NCBI GenBank assembly: GCA_947173895.1
Contig: CAMWGU010000030.1
Span: 1 to 32,478 of the forward strand
From: an uncultured Bacteroides sp.
GTDB lineage: Bacteria; Bacteroidota; Bacteroidia; Bacteroidales; Bacteroidaceae
Reading direction: 5' to 3'
Length of the DNA: 32,478 bases
Shown piece after piece: positions 22,195 to 32,471 of this stretch. Positions within the stretch are counted from its first letter, which is position 1, and each line of letters opens with the position of its first letter. The notes under the pieces were generated by a model, which saw only the letters and a list, made by a program, of their open reading frames with translations, was not told the origin of the DNA and searched no databases. A program made the translations under genes and the position numbers.

Positions 22195-22282
22195 CACATA
22201 CGTATGTGTAGCCTGATACATACGTACGTGTAGCTTGATACATACGTACGTGTAGCCTGATACGTACGTATGTGTAGCCTGA
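22195..22282. repeat. Tandem array, four 22-bp units with a CGTACGT core
   Basis: Units at 22195-22216, 22217-22238, 22239-22260 and 22261-22282 follow the pattern TACATACGTACGTGTAG then CCTGA. Units 2 and 3 differ at one base, and a degenerate fifth (TGCGAATGTAAGGACTGA) follows. Each unit contains a near-palindromic ACATACGTATGT or TACGTACGT core. There are no spacers, so not CRISPR. It begins 66 bp after the nadC stop. Confidence 0.85.
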
Positions 22283-22327
22283 TGCGAATGTAAGGACTGA
22301 TAGCGATACCCTCTCATCAAGTTGGTT

Positions 22328-22773: not shown

Positions 22774-25698
22774 TTACTGGATTTCTTGATTTTCTTGCGT
22801 TTTTATTGTTCGATCCGTTGTTTGCTTTGTGAGAGTTTGTTCTTTTTTATTTTCTTCTTTAAATCGGGTAGGAGTCATACCTTTCATTTGCTTAAAAGAA
22901 GTGCTGAAATATCGTGGATAAGAAAACCCTACTTCATAGGAAATTTCATTGATGTTCATGTTGGTGTTTGTAAGCAAGTAAACGGATTTTTCGATACGTA
23001 GCCGGTTGATATAATCATTTACGCCTAATCCCGTCAGTTGTTTTACCTTATTATATAGGGAAGCTCGGCTCATAGCCATTTTGTCGGTTAGAAATTTGAT
23101 AGAAAGTTCTTCCCCAGCCATGTTTTCATTAATAAGCAGATTGAGTTTGTCTATGAATTCCTCATCTTCTTTGTTATTTGTTTGAGGACATTGTTTGGGT
23201 TCTTTTTCTTCATCGATTTCTGTCGCTAATGTTTGGACTACAGGTGTTGTTTCGGGAATGCTTTCTTCTGTTGGTAGTTTATCTTCTTTGTTTCTTAATA
23301 TGTCGTTTAATATGGCTTGTAGAAAATGATTCATATTACCTTTCATGTGCCGCTCCTTGTGATGAAAATAAATATATCCTATACCGGCTGTTATACATAC
23401 GAATAGGATGGCGGCTATGCAGATAAACCAATTTGTCTTATACCAAGGAGGGGTAATGATGATGTTTATCAAACATTTAGGCTGGGTATGATTTCCGTCT
23501 TTGGTATTACATGTTCCCCATATCGTATAATTACCCGCAGATAGGGAAGATAGATTGAGTGTCGGATCGTAAGTCTCTATCAATTGTTTTCCTCTACTTT
23601 CAATTGTATATTGGATCAGGTATTTTTGGAATACATCTCTGTTTTTTATTTTAAGCTGTATGGATAGAGAATTATAGTTCCAAGGTATTTTTATAGTGTT
23701 TTCTTTGATTCTTTTTAAAGATGAAATGCCATTGAAAAAGATGTCGGATAAGTATATTTCCGGAATTTGGGCATCTATATCTGGAATACGGGTGTTGATT
23801 TTGACCAATCCTTCTGAGCCTCCTAAATAGATATAATCTTTGTTGGATTGTTTTTGATATGCAAATAAGATTTCGTTGGCCGGAAATCCGTCCGAATTGT
23901 TCCAGAGAGTGAATCTGTTTTCCTTAATAATATATGAGTATAGTTGATTTTGGGCGCAGATCCACAGACGTTCTTTTTTGTCGGCGATGAGGTATGATAT
24001 GTTGTGAAAGAGCTTGGTATGGATGCGGTGATACTTTCGGCTTTTCAGGTCGAAGAACCCTAGTCCCTTGTTGGTTCCGGTCCATATCATGCGATCATTG
24101 TCGTAGGACATGGATGTGATGGTTTCATTCTTTTCCAATTCAAACAGTAGGCGGATACTATCGTTTTGTTGATCTACCCAGAAAGCTTGGTTGGCACATT
24201 TTAAAAGAGAAAATTTGTCATTGGAATATGACAGGCAAAGGGCATCGTTAGAGAAATCATAGTTATGGTCTGTAGGCATCTTTGTAAATGTGTGGTGCTG
24301 TGTATCGTATGTGTATGCGTTACGGCTGATGATGTATATTTTATTGTCTGCTACTTGATGAGCCAAAGGAAGATAGCCGTAAAAACATTCTTTATAGTTA
24401 GTATCTTTATCAATAATGATGAAAGGACGATACTGCTTTGTTTTCTTATTGAACAGAAAGATACCTTTAGTATATAAGGAAACCATAAGTTCAGAATCGG
24501 ATATTTCGGCGATGGACAGTACTTTGTCTCCATAAGTAGATGGAAAATGAGTGAACTTATCGGTAGACGGATCATATAGATTGATACCTCCTCCATCGGT
24601 CCCGATCCATACCTTCCCGCTTTTTTCTTCATAAAGGCTGATGATGGACTGGTCGCTTAGCCCGTTGCTGTTGCCCAAAACCGCTTCTTTATAAGTCTTG
24701 ATATATGTTTCTTTAATACTGAATATGCCTCCACGCACACTGCCTGCCCATAGATTTTTATCTTTGTCTTTATAAAACAAGGTGATGGAATTGGATGGCA
24801 GGGAAGAATTGTCGCCAACGATGTGGCGTAACTGCGAAAACTGCCGGGTTTTTGGAACAAATAAGTTGATTCCGTCTCCATCTGTTGCCAGCCATAATTT
24901 GCCATGATGTTCTGTTATATCTAAAATATAATTGTTATTCAATCCGGAATTGGCTTGGGTATAATGTTGTTGGATCATTCCATTTCGGTCATAGCAGTAA
25001 AGTCCATATCCGTAGAAGGAAGTGTAAATATGCTCATCAGTAATGTATAACGAAGTCAGCAGATTGGGGCTGCTCGGGATAAAGAGGCTGAATTGGTGAG
25101 ACAGGCAGTCGTACAGATAGATTCCTTTTCTTCGGGTACCGATTAAGATTTTATTCTTTTCCAGATAGATCATTTTCTGGATTCTGTAATCTACCAGATT
25201 GATGTCCTTTCCGTTTTTCTCTTCTTCGATGTAGATGGTCTTTATTTCTTTACTATTGTAGTCATAACAATAAATGATGTTTTCGCTTCCGAACCATATT
25301 CCTCCTTCAACTTGGATGGATGAATAGACTGTACGGGAATCGATGGTACTGAAACTATCGTGTTCGGAGTCATAAAGCGCCAGCCCTTTTTGAGTCGCTA
25401 TCCAGAAATTCCCTAAAGAATCTTCAGCCAAGTGGTTGATATAATTGCCAGGTAGGGAAGTGGAGTCATCCGAATGATGCAGATAGGTTTTAATACCTTC
25501 CTGCGTATAACTGTTTAGTCCGCTTTGGGTACCTATCCACAGTGTTCCTTTATTATCGAGCAGGATAGACTGGGCTGTAGCTTGAGAAAGCCCTTGCTTA
25601 ATGGAAAGTTGGGTGAATGAATAGTTGATGTCGTGTCCAAAAGAGAGCATTTGCGCTTCTATCCACAAGAACAAGATGGTGATTAAGGTGCGATACAT
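22774..25698 (-). CDS. Membrane-spanning propeller/Y_Y_Y regulator with AraC-type HTH and no kinase
   Basis: A 974-residue probable sensor-regulator of the adjacent polysaccharide locus. A signal peptide (residues 1-22) leads into a periplasmic two-bladed propeller region with repeated Reg_prop motifs, for example GTLWIGTQSGLNSY, GNFWIATQKGLALYD, GKLWLATDGDGINLF and GKVWIGTDGGGINLYD. A Y_Y_Y domain follows (about 660-740), then one TM helix (about 753-774, FICIAAILFVCITAGIGYIYF). A 65-residue acidic linker leads to an AraC HTH (about 843-946), with MSRASLYNKVKQLTG and NINEISYEVGFSYPRYFSTSFK. Typical hybrid two-component systems have HisKA, HATPase and receiver domains between the TM and the HTH; all three are absent. 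It is divergent from the GH16-SusC-SusD operon and likely binds the repeats at 25787-25870. No frameshift is evident. Confidence 0.88.
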   Translation of the reverse strand: MYRTLITILFLWIEAQMLSFGHDINYSFTQLSIKQGLSQATAQSILLDNKGTLWIGTQSGLNSYTQEGIKTYLHHSDDSTSLPGNYINHLAEDSLGNFWIATQKGLALYDSEHDSFSTIDSRTVYSSIQVEGGIWFGSENIIYCYDYNSKEIKTIYIEEEKNGKDINLVDYRIQKMIYLEKNKILIGTRRKGIYLYDCLSHQFSLFIPSSPNLLTSLYITDEHIYTSFYGYGLYCYDRNGMIQQHYTQANSGLNNNYILDITEHHGKLWLATDGDGINLFVPKTRQFSQLRHIVGDNSSLPSNSITLFYKDKDKNLWAGSVRGGIFSIKETYIKTYKEAVLGNSNGLSDQSIISLYEEKSGKVWIGTDGGGINLYDPSTDKFTHFPSTYGDKVLSIAEISDSELMVSLYTKGIFLFNKKTKQYRPFIIIDKDTNYKECFYGYLPLAHQVADNKIYIISRNAYTYDTQHHTFTKMPTDHNYDFSNDALCLSYSNDKFSLLKCANQAFWVDQQNDSIRLLFELEKNETITSMSYDNDRMIWTGTNKGLGFFDLKSRKYHRIHTKLFHNISYLIADKKERLWICAQNQLYSYIIKENRFTLWNNSDGFPANEILFAYQKQSNKDYIYLGGSEGLVKINTRIPDIDAQIPEIYLSDIFFNGISSLKRIKENTIKIPWNYNSLSIQLKIKNRDVFQKYLIQYTIESRGKQLIETYDPTLNLSSLSAGNYTIWGTCNTKDGNHTQPKCLINIIITPPWYKTNWFICIAAILFVCITAGIGYIYFHHKERHMKGNMNHFLQAILNDILRNKEDKLPTEESIPETTPVVQTLATEIDEEKEPKQCPQTNNKEDEEFIDKLNLLINENMAGEELSIKFLTDKMAMSRASLYNKVKQLTGLGVNDYINRLRIEKSVYLLTNTNMNINEISYEVGFSYPRYFSTSFKQMKGMTPTRFKEENKKEQTLTKQTTDRTIKTQENQEIQ

Positions 25699-25715
25699 TG
25701 TAATACAGTTTTCTG

Positions 25716-25723
25716 CAAAAATA
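25716..25723 (-). promoter_or_regulatory. Putative -7 box (TATTTTTG) for the regulator gene
   Basis: On the - strand TATTTTTG fits TAnnTTTG, 17 bp upstream of the regulator's ATG at 25698. No TTTG is seen at the -33 position, so it may be weak. Confidence 0.45.
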
Positions 25724-25786
25724 CATTTTTTTTCTGTGGATAAGGGGTGGGAAGCTTGTTTTTTCGGGCGTCAAATGATGAAAAAG

Positions 25787-25870
25787 ACTATTTTTGATAT
25801 TAAAAGGCTGATTTTTGACTCTCTCTGGACAATATTTGACTTCATTTATACGATTCTTGACCTTGTTGAT
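25787..25870 (+). promoter_or_regulatory. Operator array: four direct repeats at 21-bp spacing before the polysaccharide operon
   Basis: Four units (25787-25807, 25808-25828, 25829-25849, 25850-25870) share the pattern ACnATTTTTGACTTT. The TTGA tetramer falls at 25794, 25815, 25836 and 25857, exactly 21 bp apart, so the sites lie on one face of the helix. The last unit covers the expected -33 region of the promoter at 25883-25890, as expected for activator sites contacting polymerase. The array lies between the divergent AraC-type regulator and the operon, the natural place for that regulator to bind. Confidence 0.7.
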
Positions 25871-25882
25871 TGGCAGATATAC

Positions 25883-25890
25883 TAAGTTTG
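25883..25890 (+). promoter_or_regulatory. -7 box (TAAGTTTG) of the GH16-SusC-SusD operon
   Basis: An exact TAnnTTTG match 49 bp upstream of the GH16 start. The -33 region has no TTTG and is occupied by the fourth operator repeat, which fits a promoter that depends on an activator. Confidence 0.65.
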
Positions 25891-25939
25891 CATCATCGAA
25901 ATAAAGGAAATGACTTTGTAAACTAAAATTGATGTAGCT

Positions 25940-26716: not shown

Positions 26717-26790
26717 AATAGTTTCGGCAGAATATGAATAATGATAATATAATTGATAGAAAACCTATTAACTTAGTTAAATTTAAACTT

Positions 26791-29700
26791 ATGGAAAAAC
26801 AAAGGCAAAAAATGTTTCGCATGTTTTTGGCAAGCGTCCTGATGCTGTTCTCGTTTACGATATATGCACAGGAACGTACGGTGACAGGTAAGGTGTATGA
26901 TGCATCTGGTGAATCTATAATAGGAGCCAGTGTGATGGTGCAAGGCACTACTCTAGGGGTTATAACTGATATAGATGGTGCTTTTGAACTGAAGGTGCAG
27001 CCTTCACAATCTTTAGTAGTCAGTTTCTTGGGCTATAAGGATGTGATTCTGCCGGTAGGAAACAAAACAAATTTTAAGATTGTTTTGGAGGAAGATTCAA
27101 AGAAATTGGATGAAGTGGTTGTTGTAGGATACGCCACTCAGAAGAAAGTGAATTTGACAGGATCTGTGGCTTCGGTATCTGCAAAAGATATTCAAGATAT
27201 TCCGGTAGCCAATACGACAACTTTGTTGCAAGGGCGTTTGCCAGGATTAGTGCTGACTCAGAATGGAGCACAAGCCGGTAATGATAACCCGGAAATCAGA
27301 ATCCGCGGTATTGGTACTTTTGGCAACAACAACCCGATGGTGCTGATTGACGGGGTAGAGGGTAGTATTTCACAAATTGCAGAAATACCTTCTGCGGATA
27401 TTGAAAGTATTTCTGTATTGAAAGATGCGGCTTCAGCTGCTATATACGGTGTGCGTGCTGCCAATGGTGTCATATTGATTACTACTAAAAAGGGACAGGC
27501 TTCAAGCAAGGTGAAAGTGGCCTATTCGGGCAGCTACACTTTGCAAACACCGGGTATTATTCCTGATTATATAGACAGCTATAACTGGGCTTTGATGAGA
27601 AATGAGGTAAAACCTGGTACTTTTTCTGAAGAAGCTTTGCAGAAACTGAAAGACGGATCAGATCCAGACCATTATGCAAATACCAACTGGTTGGATGCTG
27701 TTTTGCGTAATGCCAGTATGCATCAACATCATTTGTCTGTATCTGGGGGTAGTGAGAATACGCATTTTATGACTTCTGTAGCTTATTCCAATCAGGATGG
27801 TATTATGCTGAAGACAGGAGTGGAGCGTTTCTCTTTCCGTTCAAATGTTGATACCCGATACAAACGTTTCACTTTTGGACTGAATTTGTCTGGTAACAAG
27901 AATAATCTGACCGCTCCTGCTGTAGCCCCTTCGGGCGATAGCGGTATCATGCGGTATGTTTCTTGGTTTACTCGTCCTACTGTTCCGGTGATGTATTCTA
28001 ACGGATATTATGGATATGTAGATGGATCGATGACAAATGCTGAAGATATCAAAAATCCTGTTGAATTAATGTCTTTGGGACACCGGAGTAACGAATATTG
28101 GAGATTTAACGGAAAAGCGTTTGCCGGAATTGACTTGTGGGACGGATTAAAGTTTCAAACCAGTTTGGCTTATGCTTTTGATTTAAATGCAACAAAAACA
28201 TATTCTCCCAAGTCTCCGGCTCGTTATGATGCAGATGGGAATGTAAAGAAAGCAGCAGGACAGACAAATAAGGAAGAAGATTACTGGTACCGCAATGCGA
28301 CATGGACAAACGAAAATTTGCTGACTTATAACAAGGTGTTTGATAAACATAATGTCAGTGTGTTGCTGGGACATTCTATCATCGGGTCACGTTTTTATAC
28401 GACAGCTGCTTCTATACAGGGATTTCCTACTGAAAATATTTATGAACTCGATGGAGGTACAATCAATCCAGGAACAAGAGGAAATTCGGAAGAATATAAG
28501 CTTCAGTCATTTTTTGGCCGTGTGAATTATAGTTATGATGACCGTTATCTGTTTGAATTCAATATTCGCCATGATGGTTCTTCACGTATGCCTAAAGCTA
28601 ATCGCTATGCCACATTCCCTTCTGTATCAGGAGGATGGGTGTTCTCGAATGAAGCTTTTATGGAGAACTGTAGAAATTTCTCTCTTGGTAAGTTACGTCT
28701 GTCATGGGGTAAGTTGGGTAATCAGGAAATTGGTAATTATGCTTATGCGGCTACTTTGGGAGCAAGTGGAAATTATTTCTTTGATCAAGGTGGAGATAAG
28801 CAAGCCGGTATGGTACAAACTTCTGTTCCGAATGAAAATATCAAATGGGAAACCACTCGTTCCATCAATGTAGCCCTTGACCTTGGATTCTTTAATAATA
28901 GAGTACAGACTACTTTTGAATGGTTTGATAAGAAAACTTCTGATATCTTGATGCAGTTGGCTATGCCGGGCATATTCTTGGGGTCTCTTAATGCTCCTTA
29001 TCAGAATGTGGGCGCAGTTCGTAACCGTGGTTGGGAATGGAATGTGAATTACTCGGATAGTAAAGGCGATTGGGCTTGGAATGTAGGATTCAATCTGTCA
29101 CATGTAAAAAATGAAATTTTGGAGATGGGAGGTTTAAAAGAAACAATTAGTGGGCAAACAATTAATCGTATAGGTAATCCTATTGGCGCTTATTTTGGAT
29201 ATAAAGCGATTGGTATTTACCGTACTGAATCTGATTTACAGCGTACTAATTCAAAAGGAGAGGTTATTAAACAAAATGGTGTGGCTCCTAAATTGGGTGA
29301 TATCATGTATGCTGATTTGAATGATGACGGAAATATTACTGCTGAGGATCGGGATATCATTGGTAATCCTTTTCCTAAATATTCTTACAGTCTTAATTTG
29401 GGGGCTTCTTGGAAGAACTTTGATTTGTCTACTTTCTGGCAAGGTGTGGGAGGTATTTATCGTTATAGCTGGGAAACTACAACCGACATTCGAGGTAACT
29501 TTACTGATCGTTGGCTGGATCGCTATTCTGCTGATAATGTAGATGCTTCTATGCCAGCATTGGGTAATGCGATAAATGATTCCTACTCTTCATTTTGGTT
29601 GGAAAATTCTAGCTATTTGCGTCTGAAAAATCTAGAGTTCGGTTATACATTCCGTCAACCTGGACTTGCTAAGATAGGTGTATCTAGTGTCCGTGTTTAT

Positions 29701-29832
29701 TTTGCCGGAAGTAATCTGTTGACATTTACATCTTTGAAAAACTGGGATCCAGAAAAGACATCGGGTGATGCTAGAAATGACGTACATCCTAATATGAAAA
29801 CTTATTCGTTTGGATTAAATATTCAATTCTAA
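26791..29832 (+). CDS. SusC/RagA-family TonB-linked outer-membrane transporter
   Basis: A 1013-residue TonB-dependent transporter that imports oligosaccharides across the outer membrane with its SusD partner. The ATG at 26791 is chosen because it begins the signal peptide (MEKQRQKMFRMFLASVLMLF...YAQ); an in-frame ATG 19 codons earlier would bury it. Domains in order are a carboxypeptidase-regulatory-like domain (about 28-105, RTVTGKVYDASGESIIGASV), the linker LDEVVVVGYATQKK, the plug (about 120-235, with IRIRGIGTFGNNNPMVLIDG and ISVLKDAASAAIYGVRAANG), and a 22-strand barrel ending in KTYSFGLNIQF. All are typical for the family, with no truncation. It follows the GH16 gene by 74 bp and precedes SusD by 21 bp. 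Confidence 0.96.
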   Translation: MEKQRQKMFRMFLASVLMLFSFTIYAQERTVTGKVYDASGESIIGASVMVQGTTLGVITDIDGAFELKVQPSQSLVVSFLGYKDVILPVGNKTNFKIVLEEDSKKLDEVVVVGYATQKKVNLTGSVASVSAKDIQDIPVANTTTLLQGRLPGLVLTQNGAQAGNDNPEIRIRGIGTFGNNNPMVLIDGVEGSISQIAEIPSADIESISVLKDAASAAIYGVRAANGVILITTKKGQASSKVKVAYSGSYTLQTPGIIPDYIDSYNWALMRNEVKPGTFSEEALQKLKDGSDPDHYANTNWLDAVLRNASMHQHHLSVSGGSENTHFMTSVAYSNQDGIMLKTGVERFSFRSNVDTRYKRFTFGLNLSGNKNNLTAPAVAPSGDSGIMRYVSWFTRPTVPVMYSNGYYGYVDGSMTNAEDIKNPVELMSLGHRSNEYWRFNGKAFAGIDLWDGLKFQTSLAYAFDLNATKTYSPKSPARYDADGNVKKAAGQTNKEEDYWYRNATWTNENLLTYNKVFDKHNVSVLLGHSIIGSRFYTTAASIQGFPTENIYELDGGTINPGTRGNSEEYKLQSFFGRVNYSYDDRYLFEFNIRHDGSSRMPKANRYATFPSVSGGWVFSNEAFMENCRNFSLGKLRLSWGKLGNQEIGNYAYAATLGASGNYFFDQGGDKQAGMVQTSVPNENIKWETTRSINVALDLGFFNNRVQTTFEWFDKKTSDILMQLAMPGIFLGSLNAPYQNVGAVRNRGWEWNVNYSDSKGDWAWNVGFNLSHVKNEILEMGGLKETISGQTINRIGNPIGAYFGYKAIGIYRTESDLQRTNSKGEVIKQNGVAPKLGDIMYADLNDDGNITAEDRDIIGNPFPKYSYSLNLGASWKNFDLSTFWQGVGGIYRYSWETTTDIRGNFTDRWLDRYSADNVDASMPALGNAINDSYSSFWLENSSYLRLKNLEFGYTFRQPGLAKIGVSSVRVYFAGSNLLTFTSLKNWDPEKTSGDARNDVHPNMKTYSFGLNIQF

Positions 29833-29853: not shown

Positions 29854-31473
29854 ATGTTGAAGAATAAAAAAAATATATGCAGAGTTTTATTGTTGTCTGG
29901 AATGCTGATGGCTTCCAGTGCATGTTCGGATAGTTTTTTACAAACAGACTCTCCAAACCAGCCTTCACAAACCACTTATTGGCAGACAGAATCGGATGCG
30001 TTGATGGCTTTGACAGCCTGTTATGATGCTATGCAGAGTCAAAATCTGTATGATGACAACATTGACGGATGGAAATTTGGTTTTCTAGGGCGTGAGACCA
30101 GTACGGACAATGGTGACCATACATGGGGTGACTGGATGTTGGGAAGTTCTATCTCGAAATGTGCTTCAGCCACTACCGATGAATGTTTTTCCATGTATTG
30201 GAATGCCAATTATGAAGTGATTAAACGTTGCAACATGTTGGTGGAAAATGTGGAACGTATTCCGATGGAGGCAGAAAAAATAGATGCATACAAGGCGGAG
30301 GCCGTAGCATTGAGAGCCTTAATGTATTGCAACCTGATTTCTGTGTTTCGCGATGTTCCCTATCTGACTAAACCTTTGACATTGGCTGAAGCACAGGCTC
30401 CAAAGACAGAACGTAGCCAGATAGTTTCTTCTTTGCTGGAAGATTTGAAAACCTGGATTCCTAAAATACCTGTAATAGGAAAAGCTCAGGCTGGACGTAT
30501 GACCCAAGAAGCGGCTTATGCCATTATGGGACGAGTTGCTCTTTTTAATCAGCGTTGGGACGAAGCCATTGCTGCTTATAAAAATGTGATAGGTAAGGTA
30601 CAATTGTTCACGTCGGGTGATGGTAGTGATTATGCTGCCAATTTTGCTGATTTGTTTACCGAAAAGAATGAAACGGCGGCAGAGGTGTTGCTTAGTGTGC
30701 ATTATAAAGGTCCTGGACTGGGGGAAGGCAATTGTTTCGGTGTTTGTTGGTCGGCTCCAATGAATGCCATTGAAGGTTCAATGAACCTGTGTGATGATTT
30801 TTATTGTATTGATGGATTACCTATTGACAAATCACCTCTGTTTAAGGGAAATCTGGCAGAAGGTGCGCATACCAAGGCTGAACCGGACATGGGACGCTAT
30901 GAAAACCGCGACCCGCGAATGAAAGGAACTTTGATGGTGCCGGGCATGGAATGGAACGGGAAACTGTATACCAATAATTTGCCTGCAAGTTCTACTTGCT
31001 GTATCCGTAAGTGGTACACTCCGGAAAATACGGCCAATGAATACGATGGCAGTTTAGACTTCTATATCATTCGTTATGCTGAAGTGCTTCTATCGCTTTC
31101 GGAAGCGATGATTGAAAAGGGAGGTTATCCGCAGGCGGAAGTGACCGAATATATCAATGAAGTTCGTGCCCGCGTGGGCATGCCGGCCGTAGAATCTGTA
31201 GAGGGAACGAATCTGACTCAGGAGGAGTTACGGGCTATTGTACGTCATGAACGTCGGGTAGAACTGGCTTTTGAGGATTTGCGCTTTGCCGATCTTTATC
31301 GTTGGGGAGAATTTGAAAATGCCCAGAAACGTATGCAAAAGGATCAGTCATTCTATGGATTCGGAGCAGTGCCGAGAGGTAATATCCGGGGTGGACAAGA
31401 TCTGGTGTGGCCTATTCCGCAAAGTGAGATTGATACAAACCCGATGTTGGAACAGCATAATGAATGGCGATAG
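29854..31473 (+). CDS. RagB/SusD-family nutrient-binding outer-membrane lipoprotein
   Basis: A 539-residue surface lipoprotein that captures glycan for the SusC channel. The signal ends in the lipobox SSAC, followed by SDSFLQTD, the usual SusD opening. The helical TPR-like scaffold starts near TTYWQTESDALMALTACYDAM. The family segments AEAVALRALMYCNLISVFRDVPY (its middle part) and the C-terminal RHERRVELAFEDLRFADLYRWG are both present. The chain closes with VWPIPQSEIDTNPMLEQHNEW, so it is complete. With the SusC partner and GH16 enzyme it makes a minimal polysaccharide utilisation locus. Binding residues cannot be assigned by eye. Confidence 0.96.
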   Translation: MLKNKKNICRVLLLSGMLMASSACSDSFLQTDSPNQPSQTTYWQTESDALMALTACYDAMQSQNLYDDNIDGWKFGFLGRETSTDNGDHTWGDWMLGSSISKCASATTDECFSMYWNANYEVIKRCNMLVENVERIPMEAEKIDAYKAEAVALRALMYCNLISVFRDVPYLTKPLTLAEAQAPKTERSQIVSSLLEDLKTWIPKIPVIGKAQAGRMTQEAAYAIMGRVALFNQRWDEAIAAYKNVIGKVQLFTSGDGSDYAANFADLFTEKNETAAEVLLSVHYKGPGLGEGNCFGVCWSAPMNAIEGSMNLCDDFYCIDGLPIDKSPLFKGNLAEGAHTKAEPDMGRYENRDPRMKGTLMVPGMEWNGKLYTNNLPASSTCCIRKWYTPENTANEYDGSLDFYIIRYAEVLLSLSEAMIEKGGYPQAEVTEYINEVRARVGMPAVESVEGTNLTQEELRAIVRHERRVELAFEDLRFADLYRWGEFENAQKRMQKDQSFYGFGAVPRGNIRGGQDLVWPIPQSEIDTNPMLEQHNEWR

Positions 31474-31532: not shown

Positions 31533-31573
31533 GGCAGGCTGAAGCTAAATGAAGCTGAAGCTTGCCTTTTTTT
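31533..31573 (+). terminator. Rho-independent terminator of the polysaccharide operon
   Basis: GGCAGGCT (31533-31540) pairs with AGCTTGCC (31559-31566) with one wobble, followed by seven Ts. Two copies of GAAGCT lie in the loop. It is 60 bp after the susD-like stop. Confidence 0.75.
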
Positions 31574-31598
31574 ATTACCAAACTTGCTGTGCATATAA

Positions 31599-31629
31599 TT
31601 TCTTCTTTCGGCTCTTTGTCTTATCTTTG
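31599..31629 (+). promoter_or_regulatory. Promoter for the DUF4923 gene
   Basis: TTTC (31599-31602), a 19-bp spacer and TATCTTTG (31622-31629) match the Bacteroides consensus with one mismatch in the -33 box. The start codon follows 28 bp after the -7 box. Confidence 0.65.
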
Positions 31630-31657
31630 TTGCATAAATCTGAAAATTATTAAGTTT

Positions 31658-32254
31658 ATGAAGAGAAATTTTTTTTTGCAATGGTGTGGACTTCTGTTGT
31701 TCATGTGGGTGTGCTCTGTTCCTGCTGAAGCCCAAGACTTGAAGTCCATCTTGTCGGGGGTGGCAAAAGCGGTGATCGGTGATAAAGCTACTACAGCTCG
31801 TTCTATTATCGGTACATGGTCCTATCAGGCTCCCGAATGTCAGTTTGAAAGCGACCGGTTATTGGCAAAGGCAGGTGGGGAAGTGGCAGCCAAAGAAGTG
31901 GAAGAAAGGTTACAGACCGTATATGATAAGGCTGGACTGACCGGAATACAATACACGTTCAACGAAGATGGCACGTATTCTTATATATTGAAAAAACGTA
32001 CAGTGAGTGGCACGTATGTTTTTGATGACAAGGCCAAGACAATTACCATGAAAGGGAAATTGGGAATACAGACGGTGGCTTATGTGACAGTGACCGGAAA
32101 TAGTATGAGCCTTGTGTTTAATGCTGATAAACTGATGTCTATATTGAAAATGATAACTGGGGCGGCTTCTAAAGTCAATTCTACAGCTGCTACTCTAAAC
32201 GAAGTGGCTGGGGCTTATGACGGGCTGATGTTAGGCTTTGATTTGAAGAAATAA
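31658..32254 (+). CDS. DUF4923 family lipocalin-like exported protein
   Basis: A 198-residue exported protein resembling the DUF4923 family found in Bacteroidota. The ATG at 31658 begins a signal peptide (MKRNFFLQWCGLLLFMW...PAEAQ) and follows a good promoter; upstream in-frame ATGs would precede the promoter. The mature part has an N-terminal helix (LKSILSGVAKAVIG) and then a lipocalin-like run of strands starting at IIGTWSYQAPECQF, continuing through YTFNEDGTYSYILKKRTVSGTY (in part) and ITMKGKLGIQTVAYVTVTG, and ending in LMLGFDLKK. There is no lipobox Cys at the cleavage site, so it is probably periplasmic. No function is known to me. It has its own promoter after the polysaccharide-operon terminator, so it is probably unrelated to that operon. 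Confidence 0.82.
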   Translation: MKRNFFLQWCGLLLFMWVCSVPAEAQDLKSILSGVAKAVIGDKATTARSIIGTWSYQAPECQFESDRLLAKAGGEVAAKEVEERLQTVYDKAGLTGIQYTFNEDGTYSYILKKRTVSGTYVFDDKAKTITMKGKLGIQTVAYVTVTGNSMSLVFNADKLMSILKMITGAASKVNSTAATLNEVAGAYDGLMLGFDLKK

Positions 32255-32411: not shown

Positions 32412-32471
32412 ACACGTACGTATGTGTAAGCCTATACATGAGGGTGTGTCAAAACCGGCACATCCTCTTTT
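32412..32471 (+). repeat. ACGTACGTATGT repeat copy followed by a terminator-like hairpin
   Basis: ACACGTACGTATGTGTA at 32412-32428 resembles the 22-bp units near nadC. It is followed by GAGGGTGTG (32440-32448), which pairs with CACATCCTC (32459-32467) with one wobble and ends in TTTT. Being just downstream of a promoter start site, the hairpin could act as an attenuator or end a short RNA. Confidence 0.45.

Follow-up and report, generated by a model that had tools for sequence, protein, structure and literature searches.

An uncultured Bacteroides sp. carries four direct repeats in front of a GH16-SusC-SusD operon that are probably the operator of a divergently encoded membrane regulator, with the two promoter-proximal copies (sites 3 and 4) as a dimer core and the two distal copies (sites 1 and 2) as a second pair in the same phase. 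The repeats lie in a 241-nt region (positions 25699-25939) between the regulator gene on the minus strand and the GH16, SusC and SusD genes on the plus strand. This region belongs to a 32,478-nt stretch of DNA, called the window here, which is contig 30 of a genome of 3.26 Mb in 143 contigs. The core pair is largely of a known kind. The more interesting part of the locus is not the four-copy array but the regulator, which from its domain content is predicted to be a protein like the hybrid two-component (HTCS) regulators without their phosphorelay. The array thus offers a testable candidate operator for an HTCS-like sensor wired directly to an AraC-type helix-turn-helix (HTH) domain.

The four TTGA words are separated by three spacings of exactly 21 bp (Table 1). 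An earlier note on this DNA had claimed these words and their phasing, and re-reading of the sequence confirmed both; the sites do lie two helix turns apart in a single register. Comparing the 16-mers of the array units (AAGACTATTTTTGATA, AGGCTGATTTTTGACT, TGGACAATATTTGACT and TATACGATTCTTGACC) showed the shared context to be looser than the note had it. The TTG of site 4 (25857-25859) is 23 nt upstream of a predicted -7 box, TAAGTTTG, that fits the TAnnTTTG consensus published for this element (PMC7366714). This is the position expected of a -33 element, as had been proposed for the last unit. Of the features of Bacteroides primary-sigma promoters (TAnnTTTG at -7 and TTTG near -33), the -7 box is present and conserved, and this TTG may correspond to the second. 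If the predicted box is centered on -7, transcription would start near 25894 and site 4 would span approximately -47 to -32. The regulator gene may have a -7 box of its own (Table 1); a CAAAAATA stretch is also found near the regulator start in many orthologs.

Table 1. Positions of the half-sites, promoter elements and genes in the window.
Feature	Position	Strand	Basis
Site 1, distal half-site	25784..25799	+	TTGA at 25794; PWM rank 4 of 338
Site 2, distal half-site	25805..25820	+	TTGA at 25815; PWM rank 3 of 338
Site 3, conserved half-site	25826..25841	+	TTGA at 25836; PWM rank 1
Site 4, conserved half-site at -33 region	25847..25862	+	TTGA at 25857; PWM rank 2
Predicted -7 box TAAGTTTG of GH16-SusC-SusD promoter	25883..25890	+	Fits TAnnTTTG consensus
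Possible -7 box (TATTTTTG) of divergent regulator gene	25716..25723	-	Tentative; read by eye
Regulator gene, 974 aa	22774..25698	-	Pfam; alignment with HTCS relatives
HTH_18 (AraC-type) DNA-binding domain, residues 871-948	22855..23088	-	Pfam, 69.4 bits
GH16, 258 aa	25940..26716	+	Match to 6t2r, 525.7 bits
SusC-like TonB-dependent transporter	26734..29832	+	TIGR04056, 959.7 bits
SusD-like lipoprotein	29854..31473	+	SusD_RagB, 155 bits

We compared the array with shuffled versions of the 241-nt intergenic region using windows of 10, 14 and 18 nt. None of 1000 dinucleotide shuffles reached the fourfold self-similarity seen at period 21, whether at that period or at any other in the range 15 to 55. 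Four TTGA words at 21-bp intervals did not occur in 3000 shuffles, and any 4-mer repeated four times at any period occurred in 2 of 400. Three copies judged by self-similarity alone were weaker than four (12 of 1000 shuffles at any period) and two copies were not significant (429 of 1000). Thus, it is the fourfold array that stands out. A search for the exact pattern of four TTGA words at 21-bp intervals found the array as its sole occurrence in the window's genome. The pattern is present in 15 of 61 genomes of the genus, and most of the other matches listed appear by eye to be repetitive and heptad-like. The array is absent from the Tandem Repeats Finder listing for the window.

To place the array among its relatives, 12 loci were compared, each with a GH16 gene adjoining an ortholog of the regulator. 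Nine form clade A (the window, which is L002, and L003, L004, L005, L006, L034, L141, L142 and L143), with regulators 69-81% identical to the window's. The other three form clade B (L008, L009 and L010), with regulators 47-49% identical to it by tblastn. The GH16 gene was found by tblastn in L003, L006 and L008-L010, through the same contigs in L004, L005 and L034 (as L033, L032 and L140, respectively), and in L141-L143 by its first residues only, read by eye. Left out before counting were L032 and L033, which are on the same contigs as L005 and L004, and L007, which has 71 nt of upstream sequence only. Also left out were L011, in which the first divergent gene is by eye not GH16 and there is no such pair in phase, and L012, which has the pair at 0 and -21, a different first gene and a regulator with kinase domains. 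Further relatives (L144-L155) were inspected outside the counts. The window's own species is represented by one genome at the DNA level.

Sites 3 and 4 are kept in all 12 loci, always at offsets 0 and -21. The distance from site 4 to the TAnnTTTG box, taken from the first three letters of the word, is 23 nt in every one of them; the word itself is TTGA in seven loci and CTGA in five. We scored each locus with a position weight matrix (PWM) trained on sites 3 and 4 of the other loci, leaving the tested locus out. Sites 3 and 4 took the top two ranks among 298-340 positions on both strands in all nine clade-A loci; common descent accounts for part of this, because for most of the tested loci the training set still contained close relatives. 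In all three clade-B loci the two sites are within the best four of 274-388 positions. Among five clade-A sequences the mean pairwise identity is 0.82 for site 3, 0.79 for site 4, 0.92 for the -7 box and 0.45 for the spacer. Conservation in related species had been suggested as a check on the array. The proximal pair and its 21-bp spacing came through it in 12 of 12 loci but the four copies did not, since sites 1 and 2 are missing in all eight other clade-A loci. In each of the 12 loci the proximal pair has the form of an HTCS-type operator, that is, two similar direct sites 21 bp apart. The pair is upstream of a SusC/SusD operon adjoining the regulator in the window, L032, L033 and L140; the available sequence reaches only the start of SusC in L003 and L006 and only the GH16 gene or its start in the other loci.

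The core pair also co-occurs with the regulator. A pattern written from the clade-A sequences and searched with up to three mismatches matched five of the 61 genomes of the genus, at one place each and always at the regulator locus. In all five, the regulator present is the window's own or an ortholog with 69% identity or more, and the backward pattern used as a control matched none of the 61 genomes. Eleven genomes of the genus have a best regulator match at least 47% identical; the six more distant ones have no match to the core pattern because it is too strict for them. With this pattern and mismatch limit, the one match in the window's genome gave no sign of distant regulon targets, and the search is uninformative on clade-B genomes because the pattern is too strict for clade B as well. 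Similar pairs are found beside HTCS-length relatives. By eye, L151 and L152 carry such a pair at the corresponding position ahead of a TAnnTTTG box. In L153, likewise by eye, a 21-bp interval separates two TGACT words, and the 300 nt inspected contain no TAnnTTTG box. The same 21-bp pair precedes the different first gene of L012 (G054:C152), a relative with HisKA and HATPase domains whose sensor is 47% identical; its frame ends early, and a contig end is nearby.

The distal sites gave a different picture. With a PWM made without the window, site 2 scored 8.7 and site 1 scored 5.0, behind only the core sites on both strands, and they are at exactly -42 and -63 relative to site 4. No shuffle of the distal region out of 20000 reached both scores (23 reached that of site 1 and 6 that of site 2). 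These ranks in phase and the shuffles indicate that sites 1 and 2 are copies of the operator motif. Both are present in one of the 12 loci, the window itself. The scores at -63 and -42 are negative in all eight other clade-A loci, the nearest being that of site 1 in L006 (-1.3, rank 7 of 298), and the -42 offset scores negative in all 11 other loci. Pairwise identity among the five clade-A sequences is 0.37 for site 1 and 0.34 for site 2. All three clade-B loci (L008-L010) have a direct site at -63 (scores 12.4-14.7), nothing at -42, and, at -55, the motif in inverted orientation (scores 14.9-19.1), overlapping the direct site. The core is found in 12 of 12 loci and the distal arrangement differs between the window, clade A and clade B. 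The simplest reading of this is that the core would be ancestral and the distal part turning over. The variant with all four copies comes from a single genome so far. We also considered a duplication of the 42-bp pair; the spacer of L003-L005 is by eye almost equal in length, which fits better with point change.

The same geometry was sought at other SusC promoters. The census began with 80 SusC-upstream stretches: all 47 reported for genome G008, 20 of 33 for G000 and, from the 48 for G060, 13 chosen by hand because they differed from those of G008; the 47 of G027 were unused. More SusC genes may exist because only part of the candidates in the three genomes used were scored (47 of 128, 47 of 115 and 47 of 49). 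Dropping six stretches (the window's own, four cut by contig ends and one without an ATG start) left 74 regions that include a few near-duplicates. Pair similarity across these had its highest mean of 27 lags at lag 21 (0.626 versus 0.590, z 3.8), although lag 21 was the best lag in only nine of the 74 regions, the next lag being best in eight. This enrichment of pairs fits the 21-bp rule published for HTCS motifs (PMC3878776). Fourfold similarity at lag 21 was not enriched among the 74 regions. At 0.722, the window's fourfold score was the highest among 75; the runner-up at lag 21 had 0.556, and the highest value of any other region at lags from 14 to 40 was 0.667. Of these 75 regions, the window alone has a fourfold array. 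We also took 31 TAnnTTTG boxes and anchored a site 23 nt upstream of each one. Mean similarity was again highest at lag 21 (5.87 of 16; next 5.32), but no more than 5 of 31 boxes reached 9 of 16, and lags 15 and 22 gave 4 of 31. The signal for this geometry beyond the window is thus weak.

What the distal pair does can be read in more than one way. It is less likely than the four-site reading, but more likely than the other rivals, that the proximal pair alone is the operator, with sites 1 and 2 as neutral remnants or T-rich stretches that match by chance and happen to be in phase. This would be consistent with clade-A identities at sites 1 and 2 that are not above that of the spacer, and with the census, where lag-21 pairs are enriched and no other fourfold array is found. 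Against it, both distal sites fit a motif derived from other loci exactly in phase, to a degree that none of the shuffles matched, and clade B keeps a direct site at the -63 offset in three of three loci. It is rather unlikely that the distal sites serve the regulator gene, as in the autoregulation known for MelR of Escherichia coli, and not the GH16 operon. In favor of this, sites 1 and 2 have a divergent promoter on either side, and in all three clade-B loci the inverted motif is directed to the regulator gene. However, the window's distal sites are oriented to GH16 in the phase of the core, and the best minus-strand score in the window is 3.1, at a position overlapping site 3.

Readings without a specific regulator fare worse. 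It is very unlikely that the array is explained by phased T-runs that cause DNA bending or provide RNA polymerase with an UP-like element: T5 runs do lie 21 bp apart in sites 1 and 2, but the conserved sites 3 and 4 of the window have no such runs and conservation extends beyond T to AC and GAC/GAG positions. Least probable of all is that the 21-bp period is a coding heptad in a small protein from the plus-strand ORF at 25775-25885. This ORF, of 36 codons with I-F/L-D every seven residues, keeps step with the array and terminates within the -7 box. We took it seriously because no stop interrupts the plus-strand frame across the array in the window, although that says little, since on the reverse strand there is likewise an open frame covering the array. 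The plus-strand frame is also open throughout in L009, from just inside site 1 in L008, and through sites 3 and 4 in four of the 11 other loci (L006 and L008-L010). Differences between units are often at third positions, and a coding origin would suit the heptad-like look, by eye, of most of the other matches in the genus. By contrast, 10 of the 11 other loci have a stop within the span of sites 1-4 (in L008 only at the first codon), and in seven of 11 the first codon of site 3 is TAG while the DNA of sites 3 and 4 is kept. The remaining 60 genomes of the genus, those of L008 and L009 included, gave no protein match at E<=0.01. In addition, the ORF ends upstream of the predicted start, and the region has no plus-strand TAnnTTTG box before the ORF.

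We return to the reading in which all four sites form an operator of the adjacent regulator. This protein contains Reg_prop repeats (PF07494, 98.3 bits), one hydrophobic, presumed transmembrane stretch near residue 770 (by eye), and a C-terminal HTH_18/HTH_AraC domain (PF12833; Table 1). No HisKA, HATPase_c or receiver domain was matched in Pfam at E<=1e-3. Kinase and receiver domains were likewise absent at E<=1e-5 from all seven orthologs scanned (L003, L006, L034 and L008-L011). The same domains were all detected in an HTCS used as a positive control (L027; PF00072 at 78.7 bits), and HisKA and HATPase were detected in L012. Alignment gave the same picture, as the interval at residues 800-868 of the window's protein holds 37-73 residues in nine kinase-less proteins (the window's, L003, L006, L034, L032 and L008-L011) versus 426-434 in five HTCS relatives. 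L012 shows 60 residues there, a meaningless count that comes from its kinase being aligned against the HTH. The earlier note had set the array beside known AraC-type and hybrid two-component regulators. Operator-like sites do adjoin a gene encoding an AraC-type HTH, but the regulator is not an HTCS because it is without kinase and receiver domains. We found no description of an HTCS lacking its kinase in the available parts of the literature searched.

The HTH of the window's regulator is 79-83% identical to those of clade B versus 47-60% for the five HTCS relatives, which come from the same genus. The whole protein is 80% identical to a record named Phocaeicola sartorii (L032) and 79% to one named Bacteroidaceae bacterium (L033). 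Among the 120 relatives listed of 3709, most are 77% identical and about 955 aa long, and the organism, where the NCBI name gives one, is Bacteroides caccae. Wider searches matched one of 393 genomes in the order at E<=1e-200 (the window's own), six of 399 in the family at E<=1e-170, and 13 of 158 in the genus of G386 at E<=1e-170. Within the window's own genome, a protein search gave five further matches; three of these come from two contigs whose frames are of HTCS length. A search of that genome with the Reg_prop family model, which is 24 residues long, found nothing at E 1e-5. A second group of proteins in L147, L154 and L155 is 33-34% identical by tblastn, with frames of about 980 aa and a continuous match to residue 952-954. 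This group was judged kinase-less by length only.

In the mechanism we propose, one dimer of AraC-type DNA-binding domains would occupy sites 3 and 4 as two direct half-sites 21 bp apart, contact RNA polymerase at the -33 region, and activate the GH16-SusC-SusD operon. The trigger would be a mucin-type oligosaccharide sensed by the periplasmic propeller domain. Sites 1 and 2 would most likely accommodate another dimer on that same face of the DNA. The membrane anchor need be no obstacle to DNA binding because chromatin immunoprecipitation with an antibody against an HTCS periplasmic domain is reported to recover PUL DNA (PMC3404733). Cooperative, stepwise activation through the array, as suggested in the earlier note, is possible. 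In HTCS proteins the receiver keeps the HTH inactive until it is phosphorylated, and those that deviate from this clamp are described as mostly linked to host glycans (PMC11253607). A receiver-HTH clamp cannot act in the window's regulator since the receiver is absent. One could speculate, as a long shot, that an HTCS-derived activator lost both phosphorelay and clamp and that two phased dimer sites compensate, with copy number setting the steepness of the response of a mucin-glycan operon. If so, activation would need four DNA-binding domains to assemble in register. Because related species carry two-site, four-site and inverted-site versions of the promoter, the effect of operator copy number could be measured without invented sequences.

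The proposed operator and regulator resemble several known systems in part. AraC (araI1-I2) and MelR of E. coli bind operators in which direct half-sites are spaced by about 21 bp, the final one being at -35/-33, and MelR uses more than one pair of sites. Both are soluble regulators at promoters of the E. coli type; as whole systems they are not homologous to the window's. SusR-like one-component regulators are alike in joining a periplasmic sensor directly to a cytoplasmic DNA-binding domain without a phosphorelay. They differ in that domain, which in SusR is not of the AraC type and is not significantly similar to the DNA-binding domain of any other known factor (PMC3878776), whereas the window's regulator has HTH_18/HTH_AraC. 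HTCS motifs of Bacteroides are described as direct repeats averaging 21 bp, interpreted as dimers on one face of the DNA (Ravcheev et al. 2013, PMC3878776). As in the window, these repeats precede SusC/SusD operons, and the protein to which they are assigned combines a periplasmic sensor with an AraC-type HTH. The published form has two sites versus four in phase in the window, where the neighboring protein is without kinase or receiver. HTCS regulators such as BT4124 and BT4663 (PMC11253607) share the Reg_prop propeller, the one membrane stretch and the AraC-type HTH; in the window's regulator HisKA, HATPase and receiver are absent and 37-73 aa replace about 430 aa. In the literature searched we found no four-site operator of a hybrid two-component regulator, and the parts of it available to us hold no description of a class with an HTCS-like sensor directly on an AraC HTH.

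The likely substrate of the operon can be approached through its first gene. Residues 13-258 of the GH16 protein match PDB 6t2r, which is among the entries of a paper on mucin endo-O-glycanases (PMC7419316) and, by elimination, appears to be BACCAC_03717 of B. caccae. Because the GH16 resembles this mucin endo-O-glycanase, its substrate is likely to be polyLacNAc of mucin rather than a plant glucan. Among known loci, the closest are the GH16 mucin O-glycanase loci of B. caccae, for which the available parts of that paper describe the enzymes and not the operators. The order GH16-SusC-SusD is the same in L032, L033 and L140, and this is likely a host-glycan locus common to Phocaeicola and Bacteroides. 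A DUF4923 lipocalin-like protein is encoded just downstream of SusD (31562-32254). Nothing matches it in the ortholog L140 over the 6 kb that follow SusD, so the gene is perhaps outside the locus; L032 and L033, with about 230 nt beyond SusD, are uninformative on this point. Other repeats are also present in the window: four head-to-tail 22-bp units of ACATACGTACGTGTAGCCTGAT between two genes (22196-22283), a single similar unit at about 32418-32435, and tandem repeats at 2485-2545 (period 22) and 2574-2621 (period 21).
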